The position numbers and the translations under genes were made by a program. DNA of 64,000 nt, from contig CACCRN010000005.1 of the NCBI GenBank assembly GCA_902548405.1, forward strand, positions 1 through 64,000. The letters run 5' to 3'. Under the pieces are notes generated by a model. The model had not been told where the DNA came from and made no database searches. It was given only the letters and a program-made list of their open reading frames with translations. The DNA comes from an uncultured Pelagibacteraceae bacterium. GTDB lineage: Bacteria > Pseudomonadota > Alphaproteobacteria > Pelagibacterales > Pelagibacteraceae. Shown piece after piece: positions 14,172 to 24,911 of the stretch (its first letter is position 1; every line of letters starts with the position of its first letter).

Positions 14172-14247
14172 TGGTGGGCAGTAAAGGACTCGAACCTTTG
14201 ACCCCCTCGGTGTAAACGAGATGCTCTACCAACTGAGCTAACCGCCC
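14172..14247 (-). tRNA. tRNA-Val (TAC), CCA encoded
   Basis: Reverse strand gggcggttagctcagttggtagagcatctcgtttacaccgagggggtcaaaggttcgagtcctttactgcccacca; GGGCGGT pairs with ACTGCCC. Confidence 0.94.
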
Positions 14248-14248
14248 C
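14208..14248. repeat. left att-like direct repeat (5' part of tRNA-Val)
   Basis: cggtgtaaacgagatgctctaccaactgagctaaccgcccc, identical to 18920-18960. Confidence 0.95.
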
Positions 14249-14339
14249 TAACCAAAAAACACTGTGTTTTATATCTTTTAGTACAATAACGTCAAGATCT
14301 ATTACCTTTGAAAAATGGCTAAAAATTAAATTTTTGCGA

Positions 14340-14361
14340 CTCAACTGTGACTGTAGTGTGA
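14340..14361. repeat. 22-bp direct repeat R, left copy
   Basis: ctcaactgtgactgtagtgtga, identical to 18837-18858; contains TGTGA(C) twice at 11-bp spacing. Confidence 0.9.
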
Positions 14362-14521
14362 CTAAATTTTTTATAGATTATTAACTATACACGGATGACA
14401 CAGCTAAATTGCAAAGTGTAGAAAACTTTTTATTTTTTTTCTAATTGCATATTATTTTTGGACAAAAGTGAAATTAGCCGTGTTTACTGTGTAGCTGTGT
14501 ATATCATTGAAAATAATTTTT

Positions 14522-14800
14522 TCATTTAGTTACAGCCTTTAAAATACTAAATACATAAGTTGGAAAAAAAGCAAAGCCACACGCAAGAATACCAAAAATA
14601 CCTGAGAAAGCCATAACGCCTAAAAATGCATTACCACTATCAAACATATTCCAAAATAAGTGTGAAGCAAATTTAAATTCAGGGTTAAAAAATTCGTACC
14701 AGGCTAAACCACCTATTACAGCAAAAGCATATTTAAATATATCAGGCCCAGGAAAGTCTTTCCATTTTTCCAAATAAATAGAATTGATTTCATTGATCAT
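14522..14800 (-). CDS. hypothetical small membrane protein
   Basis: 92 aa ORF with two hydrophobic stretches (YAFAVIGGLAWYEF, FLGVMAFSGIFGILACGFAFFPTYVFSIL). Confidence 0.6.
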   Translation of the reverse strand: MINEINSIYLEKWKDFPGPDIFKYAFAVIGGLAWYEFFNPEFKFASHLFWNMFDSGNAFLGVMAFSGIFGILACGFAFFPTYVFSILKAVTK

Positions 14801-14845
14801 TAATCTTTATTCCAAATAATCACTTCAAGCATTTAGAATGCCCTA

Positions 14846-15234
14846 TTATCTTTCTGGCATTTATAATCAAAATTATAGTGTTTACCCACCATAAAACTTT
14901 TCTGAGACATAGCACCATCAAGCCTATTAATTTTCATCTCTAGATAGATGTCTAATTTTGTATCACTATGTAAAAGTTCTATTTCATTAACATTAATATC
15001 TACTCTAGTATGTTTAATTATTTTTCCTTCAGCATCTTTTAATGTGCCATCAACAAATTCCTGATTTCCAATATTTATCCAATTTCCAGATTCATCAAAG
15101 CTTAGTTTTATAGAAACATCTCAGTTTTCTTCTAAACTTCTTTTTTCATCTATACATATAATTGAAATAACTTCACTAAAAGCACACCCCCCAAACAACA
15201 AACTAAGAACCAGGATCGATAGAAACTTTTTCAT
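14846..15234 (-). pseudogene. lipoprotein-like gene interrupted by an in-frame TGA
   Basis: Reverse translation MKKFLSILVLSLLFGGCAFSEVISIICIDEKRSLEEN*DVSIKLSFDESGNWINIGNQEFVDGTLKDAEGKIIKHTRVDINVNEIELLHSDTKLDIYLEMKINRLDGAMSQKSFMVGKHYNFDYKCQKDNRAF; lipobox-like LLFGGC; TGA at 15121-15123. Confidence 0.65.
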
Positions 15235-15401
15235 TTTAAACTCAAAGTAATGAAGCAAATTATATAAAAAATAGCCATTCCAGAAAGAAATTTAGTTTCA
15301 ATAGTTTTTCCAAATTTTTTATATTGAATAAAACTTAATATAATAAAACCAAACGCAGCCACGATAAAATATGACGGTTCAATAGTTTCGGTTATACGCA
15401 T
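15231..15401 (-). CDS. hypothetical 56-aa membrane protein
   Basis: MRITETIEPSYFIVAAFGFIILSFIQYKKFGKTIETKFLSGMAIFYIICFITLSLK; stop overlaps the ATG of the downstream lipoprotein-like ORF (ATGA). Confidence 0.5.
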   Translation of the reverse strand: MRITETIEPSYFIVAAFGFIILSFIQYKKFGKTIETKFLSGMAIFYIICFITLSLK

Positions 15402-15404
15402 AAA

Positions 15405-15995
15405 TTATTTTTCATTTAATTCGTACAAGGTTTTTCCTTTATACATCCAAAATTGAGGGCCTGCGATTTTGTTCCACGTATAGCCCATCTCTTGTACAAT
15501 TTCTAAAGCTGACTGAGAAAGTGACATTGGTTTACCTTTAAATTCAATTAAATCATTTTCTAAAACTTTAGCTTTTATTGTTTTATCTTTTTTGAATTCT
15601 AATTCCTCACCAACTTCAATTCCAATTTGTGCGAAATTAAATCTATTTCTATTTCTCTCTTTATCTAAAGCTGTCTTATCACTTGAAGTTTCAACCACAT
15701 CTTCTCTTGGAGTTACATCTTCACCTTCAGCAATATCTAGCGCTGCTTTTGCTTGTTCAGGTGACATTCTAAAAAATTCTCTATTATCTCTTATTCTGAA
15801 TTCATCAAATGCTTCGTGCATTTTCTTTTCAACAAATTCTGCTTTTTCTATACGTTTTGCGTAATAACATTCAAATGGAATAGGTATTGCGGTCTTGTCT
15901 AGTTCTTTCATCCTTTGCTCTACTGAGTTTTCAGTGAAACCAATCTTGATTATGCCTGGCATTGCTTGATTGGTTAAGATGTATACAGTTTTCAT
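15405..15995 (-). CDS. T5orf172/GIY-YIG superfamily nuclease with RAMA-like C-terminal domain
   Basis: N-term KTVYILTNQAMPGIIKIGFTENSVEQRMKELDKTAIPIPFECYYA...KKMHEAFDEFRIRDNREFF; C-term FAQIGIEVGEELEFKKDKTIKAKVLENDLIEFKGKPMSLSQSALEIVQEMGYTWNKIAGPQFWMYKGKTLYEL. Confidence 0.8.
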   Translation of the reverse strand: MKTVYILTNQAMPGIIKIGFTENSVEQRMKELDKTAIPIPFECYYAKRIEKAEFVEKKMHEAFDEFRIRDNREFFRMSPEQAKAALDIAEGEDVTPREDVVETSSDKTALDKERNRNRFNFAQIGIEVGEELEFKKDKTIKAKVLENDLIEFKGKPMSLSQSALEIVQEMGYTWNKIAGPQFWMYKGKTLYELNEK

Positions 15996-16681
15996 TTAAA
16001 TTCCTTACAAAAGTTTCCTAAAGAGAAAGACATATTCCAAGGTATTGGATATCCTTTATCAATTTTATAATTTATTGCAAAATTAGCATATTCACTAATA
16101 CCTTTATTTTCAAAACAATTATAAATATGTTTTATAACTTTTGTGTAATAATCCTTCATGTCCTGTGGTGCATTTTGATCTGACAAAATCATTCTAGTTA
16201 CTGAAAGTGCTCCATCAGTATATCCTGCTAAATATACTTTTTTATTAGTATTATCTAATTTTTTCCAAGCGTTTCTTGTTATATTTTCTATTGGTTTATT
16301 TTTTTCAATTTTAATATTTTTATATTCTTCAGTTTTAGAAAGATTACTACAAACTGCTGATGACCAACGAAAAATTTCATTCGCTGCGTTATCACCTTCC
16401 TCCCAACCTAGAATAAACATATTAGTTTGAAATCTATCAAACTCTCTCTCAATGCAATATCTAAATTGTGAAATTAAAATATCTCTTGAATTATCAGGTG
16501 CATTATTCCAAATATAGTACCCCCATGCATCTAAAGCACCTTTAGCATAGAAATTTTTTTGAACTTTTTTTAAGTTATCCCAGTACGTAAAATCTGCAAA
16601 AAATTTATTTTTATCAGCGGTAGCACTTCCACAAAATAATAAGCTAATAAACATGATTGATAGAAGTATTTTCATTACCAA
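15992..16681 (-). CDS. hypothetical exported protein with internal duplication
   Basis: 229 aa, signal peptide MVMKILLSIMFISLLFCGSATA; overlaps downstream nuclease by 4 nt (ATGA). Confidence 0.7.
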   Translation of the reverse strand: MVMKILLSIMFISLLFCGSATADKNKFFADFTYWDNLKKVQKNFYAKGALDAWGYYIWNNAPDNSRDILISQFRYCIEREFDRFQTNMFILGWEEGDNAANEIFRWSSAVCSNLSKTEEYKNIKIEKNKPIENITRNAWKKLDNTNKKVYLAGYTDGALSVTRMILSDQNAPQDMKDYYTKVIKHIYNCFENKGISEYANFAINYKIDKGYPIPWNMSFSLGNFCKEFK

Positions 16682-16744
16682 TTATTACCAAATTGTTTAC
16701 TGGGTGTCTATTTGGGTAAAATATCAATATTTATTTTTTATTAA

Positions 16745-16942
16745 TTATTCTCCCCCATCAGAACCTCCTTTTTTTAAATAACTAATAATTATTTTTTTAT
16801 CTTCAGGACTTGGTTCAATTGGTTTTTCCCATAGATCTACTAATGACTGAGATATTGGTCCTACTGGTCCACCTTTTTCCATTATGGTATCATACATAGT
16901 TTCTAAGATACCTTTTTTATTTTTAGATTGTTTTTTTTTCAT
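16745..16942 (-). CDS. hypothetical 65-aa protein
   Basis: ORF MKKKQSKNKKGILETMYDTIMEKGGPVGPISQSLVDLWEKP...; purine-rich stretch aaaggagcat just upstream of the start. Confidence 0.55.
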   Translation of the reverse strand: MKKKQSKNKKGILETMYDTIMEKGGPVGPISQSLVDLWEKPIEPSPEDKKIIISYLKKGGSDGGE

Positions 16943-17021
16943 ATGCTCCTTTAGCGTTAATGTTTAATGTCCGAAGCAAGTAGAGTTATTTCTAAATCAC
17001 GGACAAATACATAGTATCAAA

Positions 17022-17045
17022 GTTCAGGGCACCTGGCAACAGAAC
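17022..17045. repeat. 24-bp repeat A, left copy
   Basis: gttcagggcacctggcaacagaac; one mismatch to 18329-18352. Confidence 0.85.
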
Positions 17046-17106
17046 GCCCCTACTCATTTGTTAATTTAGTTTGCAGTATCAACGTTATTTTAAAAACACA
17101 ACCTTG

Positions 17107-17132
17107 CTGGTCGGCCTGTGGTCGGCATTTTA
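17107..17132. repeat. 26-bp repeat B, left copy
   Basis: ctggtcggcctgtggtcggcatttta; GGTCGGC twice at 11-bp spacing; overlaps the stop of the GIY-YIG ORF. Confidence 0.85.
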
Positions 17133-18233
17133 ATTTGTTTTATTCCAAGGCTTTGGTCTTATCATATGTTTAACTGCTTCATCAAAACACCCTCTTTCTT
17201 TTGAAGCCCTATAAGCAGATGGAGAATTTCTTTTCCAGGATGATCTTGTGCTATATTTTTTTGCATCTTTTAAAATCTTTTCTTTTGTCCATTTCCAGAC
17301 CGTACTGCCTTCAACTTTTGTAAGATGTTCGGTGATTCTTGGATCATTAAGCAAATTTCTTTTTTGTGCAGCTGCGTAAGAATTTTTATCTTTTTGTAAC
17401 CATAATTTAAAAGTTTTGTGTTTTAATGCTGCTTCTATAATTTTTTCATCAGTCCATTTTTTTTCCCATAGCCTCTCCATATGTTTTGTTGCTTCTTTTA
17501 AAATACCCATTGACCAAGCTGCTTTATAACTTAAAACATCATTTTTTAACCATTCTGCTATTGTTTTATATTTTTTAGCTTCAAAAATAATTTTCTTTTT
17601 TGTCCACTTAATTGTCGTTCCTCCCAATGAGCCAGCCTTAGCTATATTTAAAACTTTATAATTTTGATTTCTGTATTCTGATACTAGCTTTCTCTCAATT
17701 TTGATTGCTTTGTCAGCTAATATGTAGTCTGTTAATTGTTTTTGAATTAATGATTTAACTCCAAACTTATTAGCTAAATCTATAATTTTTGGATTATCTC
17801 TAAAGTGATCTCTCATCCTTCTTTTAATATCTCCTGTTAGACCAATATAGATAATCTTTTTGCCTTTCACCTTAATGCTATAAACACATCTTATTTTTTT
17901 ATTTCCAACAGGTCTCATATGTTTGGTTGCTTCTTTTAACCATCCATTTTTTCTTGCAGCTCCATATGCAGAACTTTCATTGGTCACCCAAGAAACTATA
18001 GTTTCGAATTTTTTAGCTGAAGCTAAGACCTTTTCTTTAGTCCAATATCCGTGGACTATAATTTTGGACATATGCTTTGTTAGCTTTGGTAATAATTTTC
18101 TTGCACATGCAGTTGCATAGGCACTTGGTTCTTCGGTTCTCCAATCTTTGACTGAATTGTATTTGTTTGCTGATGTCTCTAGAGCTTTATATGTCCATTT
18201 ATTTGGCGTGTTAGGTTTTCTTGCCATAAACAT
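17130..18233 (-). CDS. GIY-YIG endonuclease with five flanking W(T)xEK..A.K...W....SAY.AA....L.EATKHM-type modules
   Basis: Central RCVYSIKVKGKKIIYIGLTGDIKRRMRDHF GIY-YIG domain; two modules before and three after it. Confidence 0.85.
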   Translation of the reverse strand: MFMARKPNTPNKWTYKALETSANKYNSVKDWRTEEPSAYATACARKLLPKLTKHMSKIIVHGYWTKEKVLASAKKFETIVSWVTNESSAYGAARKNGWLKEATKHMRPVGNKKIRCVYSIKVKGKKIIYIGLTGDIKRRMRDHFRDNPKIIDLANKFGVKSLIQKQLTDYILADKAIKIERKLVSEYRNQNYKVLNIAKAGSLGGTTIKWTKKKIIFEAKKYKTIAEWLKNDVLSYKAAWSMGILKEATKHMERLWEKKWTDEKIIEAALKHKTFKLWLQKDKNSYAAAQKRNLLNDPRITEHLTKVEGSTVWKWTKEKILKDAKKYSTRSSWKRNSPSAYRASKERGCFDEAVKHMIRPKPWNKTN

Positions 18234-18252
18234 TTATGCTAACATATAAAAT

Positions 18253-18278
18253 CTGGTCGGCCTAGAGTCGGCATTTTA
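18253..18278. repeat. 26-bp repeat B, right copy
   Basis: ctggtcggcctagagtcggcatttta; three mismatches to 17107-17132; just upstream of the GIY-YIG start. Confidence 0.85.
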
Positions 18279-18328
18279 GATTAAATTTGCTAATTTCAAT
18301 TCAAATTATTCGCGAATAATGGTACTTT

Positions 18329-18352
18329 GTTCGGGGCACCTGGCAACAGAAC
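18329..18352. repeat. 24-bp repeat A, right copy
   Basis: gttcggggcacctggcaacagaac; one mismatch to 17022-17045. Confidence 0.85.
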
Positions 18353-18372
18353 CAGGATCGATAGAAGTTTTT

Positions 18373-18765
18373 TCACTTATCAAAAAATTTTTTTCTAATA
18401 TATCCTACTTTGGTAGTTTTAAAATGCTTGAAGGGTACACTTGTATCTTCAATTGCTTTTATAGTCTCTTCTGTAATATTCCCATAAACTTCTATTTCAA
18501 ATCTGTCAGCAATCTCTTGATGTTTTTCAACATAAGCTTGAACAGGGGGATTATTAAGGTGATGCACCATAGCTTCACTGTTTCGGTATACCTCACTCCA
18601 CGTAAATTCTAAAGGATCAGTTGGATCTTGATCAAAAGTATGAATAAGCATATCAGGTTCTGACTCATTAACGGCGTCATCTGCTTCTTTTGCTATCTTA
18701 AGATATTCTTCAACCTTACCTTCTTTGACACGTATTCTAGCTATTAAAATAAAAGGATTAGACAT
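18373..18765 (-). CDS. antibiotic biosynthesis monooxygenase (ABM) family protein
   Basis: 130 aa; FILIARIRVKEGKVEEYLKIAKEADDAVNESEPDMLIHTFDQDPTDPLEFTWSEVYRNSEAMVHHLNNP. Confidence 0.8.
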   Translation of the reverse strand: MSNPFILIARIRVKEGKVEEYLKIAKEADDAVNESEPDMLIHTFDQDPTDPLEFTWSEVYRNSEAMVHHLNNPPVQAYVEKHQEIADRFEIEVYGNITEETIKAIEDTSVPFKHFKTTKVGYIRKKFFDK

Positions 18766-18836
18766 TGTTTATAATACCAAATCCTGAACATAGAGTCTTT
18801 AGCAAAAAAAAGTAACGAGATTCTGAACTTTTTAAT

Positions 18837-18858
18837 CTCAACTGTGACTGTAGTGTGA
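18837..18858. repeat. 22-bp direct repeat R, right copy
   Basis: Exact copy of 14340-14361. Confidence 0.9.
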
Positions 18859-18919
18859 TCAAAGTAATCGTAGAGCTTAAAACTTATTGAAACTGCTTAA
18901 TTATATTTTTTGAAATTTA

Positions 18920-18960
18920 CGGTGTAAACGAGATGCTCTACCAACTGAGCTAACCGCCCC
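18920..18960. repeat. right att-like direct repeat: truncated 41-nt tRNA-Val copy
   Basis: Exact 41-bp copy of 14208-14248; lacks variable arm, T-arm and 3' acceptor, so not a functional tRNA. Confidence 0.95.
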
Positions 18961-19009
18961 AAAACAGAGCTACTTATTACATCAACACTTAAATAAAGTA
19001 AATTAATTA

Positions 19010-23450: not shown

Positions 23451-24911
23451 TTACTTTTTGCTAACTTTTTTTGTTTTTTTAGCAGCTGTTTTTGCTTTTG
23501 CTGTTTTTGTAGAAGGTTTTTTTTTCTCTGAAGCTTTTGCTGTTTTTGTAGAAGGTTTTTTTTTCTCTGAAGCTTTTGCTGCCGGTTTCTTTTTTGTTTC
23601 TTTTTTTGGTTCGTGATCATGTTTATGAGCTTCTTTTAAGATTTTTTCCGCCTCATCTTTTGAAATTTCTTTTTTATTTGGTTTACCTTTTTCTTTTATA
23701 AGATTTAAAATTTTCTCCTCATACACTGTCCCCCTTAGACTAGCTAGAGCAGATGGGTTTTTTTGATAAAAATCCATAACCATTTTTTCTTGTCCTGGCA
23801 TCATTCTTAATTGCTTTTGAACTTCAGCTTGAATTTCTTGTTCACTAACATTGATTTTGTTTTTTTCACCAAATTCATTTAAGATTAACCCAGTTTTAAT
23901 TCTTGTTTTTGCCTTTTCCTCAAAAGATTTTTTATTCTTCTTAGCCTCGTCTTCAGACATACCTTGTGAAAGAATTTTAACTTCTTCTTCAATTAAGTTT
24001 TCTGGAACTTCCTCAACTTTAATTTTTTCAATTTCTTTTAAAATTTGATTTTTTGAAAGTTGATCTAAAGAATTTTTATATTCATCATTTATTTGTTTTG
24101 AAATTAAAGCTTTAAGATCTTTCAAATCTTTAGCTCCTAAATTTTTTGCAAAATCATCATCTATTTTCACTTCTTGTGGTTGTTTAACTGATAAAATTTT
24201 ACAATTAAATTTAGCTTTTTTATTAACTAATTCTTTTTCAGGATAATTTTCTGGAAGTGTTGCTTCAACAACTTTCTCATCATCTTTTTTAACACCAATT
24301 AGCTGCTTATCAAAACCTTTCAAAAATAAATCTTTACCTAAGGTAAGCTGTGTATTTTTTCCTTCACTACCTTTAAATTCTTTTCCATCAATTGTTGCTT
24401 TGTAATCTAGAGCTACGAGATCACCCTCTTTTGCTTTTGTATCTGCGGCACCTTCCTTGAAATTTGGTTGGTTCTTAGCAATTTCTTTTATTCTTTTATC
24501 TGTCTCACTATCATCAATTTTAACGGCGTATTCATCAAATTTAATGTTTTCTAATGATTTAATCTCTACTTTAGGTAGCTCTGTAACTGACAAGACATAT
24601 TCTAATTCTTTATCTTCACCATATGTCTTTAAATCTAATTTTGGCTGACCCGCTGGTTTAATTTTGTTTTCTTCCAATGCTTTAGTTGATGTATCTTTTA
24701 AAACTTTGTCTAATACTTCACCAAATACAGCTTTACCAAATTGTCTTTTTAAAATTTCTTTTGGTACTTTTCCTGGTCGAAAACCTTTTAAATTTACTGT
24801 TCCTTTAATCTCTTCATATTTTTCATCCATATAAGAGTTCATAGTCTCTTTATCGATAAAAATTTTTAGATCTTTATTTAAACCTTTTTTATTTTCTACA
24901 GTAACTTTCAT
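23451..24911 (-). CDS. tig: trigger factor with extended Lys/Ala-rich C-terminal tail
   Basis: [23 protein letters not shown]-domain, PPIase region; located upstream of clpP; C-term [13 protein letters not shown] repeats. Confidence 0.95.
23494..23580. repeat. 39-bp tandem repeat inside tig (two full copies plus partial)
   Basis: gcttttgctgtttttgtagaaggtttttttttctctgaa at 23494-23532 and 23533-23571, partial copy to 23580. Confidence 0.9.

Follow-up and report, generated by a model that had tools for sequence, protein, structure and literature searches.

The stretch of DNA analysed here (the window, 64,000 nucleotides) belongs to an uncultured bacterium of the Pelagibacteraceae (SAR11) and harbors on its minus strand an open reading frame of 367 aa (17130-18233), which encodes a GIY-YIG nuclease (Pfam PF01541, E 3.7e-07). 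The residues of the GIY-YIG domain (VYS..YIG, R, E, N) appear complete when judged by eye, and the domain is bordered on both sides by ~45-residue tandem repeats of the W-x-K type (W-T-K). Two sets of direct repeats on the plus strand flank the gene, A (17022-17045) and B (17107-17132) on the left and B' (18253-18278) and A' (18329-18352) on the right. The initial annotation had described this arrangement, and its positions and match counts hold: A and A' are identical at 23 of 24 positions, B and B' at 23 of 26. Allowing up to three mismatches, A and B each occur exactly twice in the window, with no occurrence expected from 100 dinucleotide shuffles; both repeats are far beyond chance.

Each B copy, originally taken for a 26-bp repeat, is really a pair of short words. 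At either end of the unit the 7-bp direct repeat GGTCGGC occurs twice at a distance of 11 bp (at 17109 and 17120 in B, at 18255 and 18266 in B'), which gives an arm-word score of 20 out of 21 that none of 100 shuffles reached. Judged by sequence, this layout is that of the arm sites of a tyrosine integrase, and the unit would carry a core and arm-type sites on both sides, as expected of a substrate of such an enzyme. Between left A and B lies a conserved left-end segment, CTCATTTGTTAATTTAGTTTGCAGTATCAACGTTATTTTAAAAACACAACC (17055-17106, plus strand), also found behind the tmRNA-associated A of other genomes, and the conserved right end contains a 16-bp palindrome, ATTATTCGCGAATAAT (18305-18320), common to many such right ends. 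Left A is itself adjoined by the motif CAAAGTTC (17018-17025, plus strand), the right-end signature of A-flanked elements.

The unit lies inside a larger island (14255-18966), for which an outer att-R ... R-att layout had been noted. This layout is real: a 47-bp direct repeat (96% identity) covers tRNA-Val sequence of the 5' half as far as the anticodon loop, with one copy (14208-14254) at the intact tRNA-Val(TAC) gene at the tRNA-proximal island end (14172-14247, minus strand; ARAGORN and Rfam) and the duplicate (18920-18966) adjoining lon. Inside these lie the R repeats (14329-14377 and, as a distal copy, 18826-18874), whose core TGTGACtgtagTGTGAC consists of two words with an 11-bp period, a layout that is also present in other tRNA-Val elements. 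Five relatives (G082, G271, G155, G253 and G261), ~95-97% identical around the site in the alignment, lack the island between lon and tRNA-Val, the two flanks meeting at the 47-bp repeat; the island is therefore a precise insertion that restored the tRNA-Val 5' half. Units of 1.65-3.3 kb with the same att - arm pair design as the island and the inner unit were found at tRNA-Val in three other genomes. No integrase gene is present in the outer island.

In the tRNA-Val units (window 14248-14330 and loci L144-L146) a conserved promoter-like TTGAC...TATAAA, supplied in the three other genomes by the right end of the unit, stands directly before the restored tRNA-Val 5' half and apparently replaces the displaced tRNA promoter. 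The outer cargo includes a T5orf172/MUG113 protein (15405-15995, minus strand; Pfam), which matches the PADLOC model of the candidate defence protein PDC-S57 (E 2.1e-71); a stretch 89% identical to its gene lies within a tRNA-Gly integrase element of another genome (G123). Beside A' lies an ABM-domain gene (18373-18765), of which copies with 84-95% identity occur in genus genomes in unrelated contexts, so that it looks like a captured host gene. The possibility that this gene is the target site of A was rejected, as the copies elsewhere have different surroundings and no A beside them.

The 19-mer core of A has three copies in the window genome, two in the window and one on contig 3. The latter is the 3' end of a two-piece tmRNA gene (Rfam RF01849, 226 bits; ARAGORN tag ANESYALAA), and it was this third copy that settled the tmRNA identity of A: the window copies match the RF01849 model weakly only, and A gave no match to Rfam at the gathering threshold, a permissive search alone linking it to alpha tmRNA. 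The A repeat of the initial annotation is thus real but not anonymous; it is the tmRNA 3' hairpin. At its 3' end the host tmRNA folds into a hairpin. Left A retains this hairpin and remains homologous to the tmRNA gene up to ~17054 (GCCCCTACT); A' ends at 18352 without the 3' GCCCC strand and continues into CAGGATCG. Direct repeats of the tmRNA 3' end thus flank the window unit, as in tmRNA (ssrA)-specific elements, with the window copy positioned inside the tRNA-Val island and not at the tmRNA gene. The host tmRNA gene has one A only, an unoccupied site. In IMG/VR, A matched phage-borne tmRNA genes only (T4-like phages with a complete alphaproteobacterial-type tmRNA gene; L125-L132), consistent with PMC9004378, and these matches were rejected as cassettes.

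Within the genus, the A 19-mer (up to one mismatch) was detected in 121 of 151 genomes, often as close direct pairs 0.25-2.6 kb apart. In forty such loci that were read, A stood at the tmRNA gene, followed at 4-12 nt the stop codons of genes that we take from their C-terminal sequences to be rnhA and pnp, lay behind a presumed bhmT, or formed tandem rows. From related Pelagibacteraceae genomes 64 distinct A-to-A units were collected (0.25-6.2 kb, median 1.2 kb), 30 of them at tmRNA. Their cargo varies widely and includes GIY-YIG proteins with or without NUMOD1, a MrcB_N/NO VEIN-type protein, trypsin-like proteases, cupredoxin, an inverse autotransporter, lipoproteins and small exported proteins; units with a single cargo gene and a length of 0.5-2 kb are common, and in 26 of 28 units examined the longest ORF was on the minus strand. 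Many genomes, the window genome included, have a single uninterrupted A at the tmRNA gene. The suggestion of a ~1.3-kb element that carries only a nuclease, is built like the outer island and lies inside it is thus supported both by the recurrence of A-B-[ORF]-B-A units with other cargo and by the single-A sites.

The units share their ends. Behind the left A follow ~50 bp that close with ...AACGTTATTTTAAAAATACAACC, and the right end reads ...ACAAAGTTC followed by A. The right-end signature with A was present in 59 of 389 genomes (15%; the genomes are incomplete), one case being in a single-contig 1.2-Mb genome, and a reversed-pattern control gave none. Each end contains, on its inner side, two ~7-bp words at a period of 11 bp; the two ends of a unit largely share their word, which varies between units (GGTCGGC in the window unit; TGGCACA, GTACGGG, TCCGCAC, GGCGTC and others elsewhere). 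Among units with the right-end signature, 38 of 48 had an arm score of at least 16 (0.8% of shuffles) and 32 of 48 one of at least 17 (0.05% of shuffles); the corresponding numbers for units lacking the signature were 1 and 0 of 16, and about a quarter of the A-to-A units lack both signature and arms. At a period of 11 bp 32 units reached a score of at least 17, compared with 3, 0, 1 and 0 at periods of 9, 10, 12 and 13 bp. The arms cluster at offsets of 67-82 bp from the left end and 94-98 bp from the right end. As part of the set was gathered by the right-end signature alone, arms and signature are partly independent evidence, and since the units are related by descent their counts do not represent independent events.

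Homologues of the GIY-YIG protein were found in only three other genomes among 349 (65, 42 and 47% identity). All three lie between A repeats directly behind tmRNA, in units that measure 1.6-2.0 kb and contain paired arm words, and the nearest (65%) uses the arm word GTCGGC, the same as the window unit. The window unit is therefore a tmRNA-type element away from tmRNA. Its protein also has homologues with ~35% identity in large Vibrio phages and falls into PHROG 20046 (function unknown).

Only one of the 64 units encodes an integrase. No tyrosine integrase was matched in the window genome (assembly 69% complete), and the unit differs from an autonomous tyrosine-integrase element in that neither it nor the island contains such a gene. 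A family of ~320-aa integrases was detected in 19 of 399 genus genomes, with a layout of a tRNA att copy followed by ~100 bp, a word pair with an 11-bp period and the int start codon. A smaller first set had contained integrases at tRNA-Gly, tRNA-Met and others and none at A. In two of the 399 genomes (G160 and G241) the tmRNA A itself takes the place of this att, and int starts ~120 bp behind it with the arm pairs in between. G160 harbors a complete 6.2-kb A-to-A element with the order tmRNA, A, integrase, small proteins, a primase-like protein (733 aa, DUF5906, PHROG DNA primase) and A; its right end is ACAAAGTTC-A as in the cassettes, and behind it come a unit of 2.4 kb and another A. The arm words of G241, GGCGTCA, were seen again in a unit without integrase from a different genome; none of the genomes analysed here was shown to combine a cassette with an integrase whose arm word is identical. 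A search of IMG/VR with the G241 integrase gave no match.

Taken together, we consider it likely that the window unit is a non-autonomous integrative cassette of Pelagibacteraceae, whose mobility, in trans through rare tmRNA-specific integrases, we infer. A, derived from the 3' hairpin of the tmRNA gene, would serve as attachment core, the word pairs at both ends as arm sites for a tyrosine integrase, and the GIY-YIG gene would be cargo. Cassettes that lack an insertion enzyme probably rely on that of larger and less common elements whose ends are the same, and the integrase-free units would thus depend on the integrase of another element in the same cell, here of the G160/G241 type. Acting on the cassette, this integrase would release a circle bearing a single A, which could then insert into the tmRNA A or a different A-like site, a step that may also have led into the tRNA-Val island. 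Insertion behind A would leave the tmRNA intact because the cassette brings the same 3' end.

The units might instead be decayed leftovers, that is, formerly autonomous elements that lost their integrase and replication genes and persist between att repeats. CIMEs (cis-mobilizable elements) are likewise att-flanked, lack an integrase and are regarded as decay products moved in cis, and the window unit, with att on both sides and no recombination module of its own, fits a CIME-like or non-autonomous integrative element. The lack of an integrase in 63 of 64 units, the truncated A' of the window unit and the units without arms would agree with decay, but no integrase or primase fragment was detected in those 63 units (E<=1e-3), and the common single-cargo units are not graded remnants. 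The right-end signature is moreover far more widespread than the tmRNA-type integrases, and ends and arm pairs are conserved despite differing cargo. Unlike in CIMEs, conserved ends combined with cargo turnover argue for use in trans, and we regard decay as unlikely.

We judge it very improbable that the GIY-YIG protein is a homing endonuclease by which the unit spreads into A sites. GIY-YIG proteins do include homing enzymes, the window protein has weak PHROGs matches to homing endonucleases, and all four homologues, the window protein among them, lie at A repeats. Most units with the same ends, however, have no nuclease gene and carry, for instance, trypsin-like proteases, cupredoxin, lipoproteins or the inverse autotransporter; arm pairs would be needless for homing, and Rfam detected no intron in the window, which speaks against group I intron membership. 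Slightly less probable still is that A is only a mobile transcription terminator whose pairs arose by homologous recombination or duplication. A does fold as a hairpin and stands just behind the stop codons of several genes, but the fixed-offset arm pairs, the conserved ends and the integrase genes in the same place would be left unexplained.

Points against a cassette mobilized in trans are the A-to-A units without signature and arms and the missing tyrosine integrase match in the window genome; moreover, the window copy may be immobile, as A' lacks its 3' strand and left A is preceded by the flank of a right end. The signature before left A was found at none of 45 tmRNA A's, so that left A may belong to a neighbouring element in tandem or represent the right end of an earlier one. 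The window unit may have reached the island as the second member of a tandem pair that arrived jointly, or may have inserted at a right end of older date. A half site of another left A was looked for in the island and not found, so that either the inner or the outer insertion may have come first.

A broader proposal, to which we give somewhat less than even chances, is that the exchangeable arm word acts as the address of many integrase-free units and that these words are recognised in trans by a small number of integrases specific for tmRNA or tRNA, with the tmRNA hairpin as a shared docking port. The effect would resemble that of an integron while the machinery would be of the lambda type. 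With regard to the attC site and the IntI-type integrase of integron cassettes, A is a hairpin and the related integrases have an extra N-terminal part and arm sites.

The element class had not been recognised in the initial annotation, but related ssrA or tRNA cassettes in which integrases are scarce are known from other bacteria. In Dehalococcoides, ssrA-specific islands are bounded by tmRNA 3' repeats, occur in tandem and carry an integration module in 16 of 31 cases (PMC3146451, PMC2764846). The SAR11 units are alike in having tmRNA 3'-end copies as bounds, in their tandem arrangement and in that many of them lack an integration module. The Dehalococcoides islands, however, use a serine recombinase (DsiB), insert in the T-loop and target a one-piece tmRNA (PMC3146451, PMC2764846), whereas the SAR11 units are linked to tyrosine integrases and to the 3' hairpin of a tmRNA made of two pieces, have arm pairs and are much smaller. 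Gene cassettes with tRNA-fragment repeats have been reported from additive flexible islands of Actinomarinales (PMC7771536) and Methylophilaceae (PMC10872708); these are also small, bounded by direct repeats of tRNA fragments and found in streamlined marine or freshwater bacteria, and the passages considered mention neither arm sites nor a tmRNA target nor elements with a cognate integrase. Tycheposons and VEIMEs (named in PMC11389934) are, according to summaries, marine integrative elements and satellites with a tyrosine recombinase, integrated at tRNA genes. By these summaries the 6.2-kb element of G160 resembles such satellites, and by the same summaries the SAR11 cassettes are set apart by having no recombinase. 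In the literature on SAR11 with tmRNA or satellites and integrase, as far as covered, no description of such cassettes was found.

SAR11 bacteria are extremely abundant and have streamlined genomes in which few mobile elements have been recognised, and yet their flexible gene pool is large. Cassettes of ~1 kb that dock at the tmRNA 3' hairpin would provide a concrete and testable route for the gain and loss of single genes in SAR11, and the cassette family would account for the otherwise odd nested repeats. As arm words vary at fixed spacing, the matching of integrases and cassettes would constitute a testable code.

Several minor features were observed in addition. Left of the unit, a leader on the minus strand (16930-17007) with the pattern TGTCCGTGATTTAGAAATAACTCTACTTGCTTCGGACA...AACGCTAAAGGAG-ATG recurs before tiny genes in at least 11 other genomes; 41 of its columns are invariant, and it contains a short GTCC/GGAC stem in which one pair is compensatory; it gave no Rfam match there and is possibly an undescribed leader RNA. 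At two loci (L150 and L151) runs of several pilin-like genes with the N-terminal GFTLIELLVVVAIIGILAAVGVVAY lie beside a copy of A. A perfect 39-bp tandem duplication is located in the window near the 3' end of the trigger factor gene (23494-23571).
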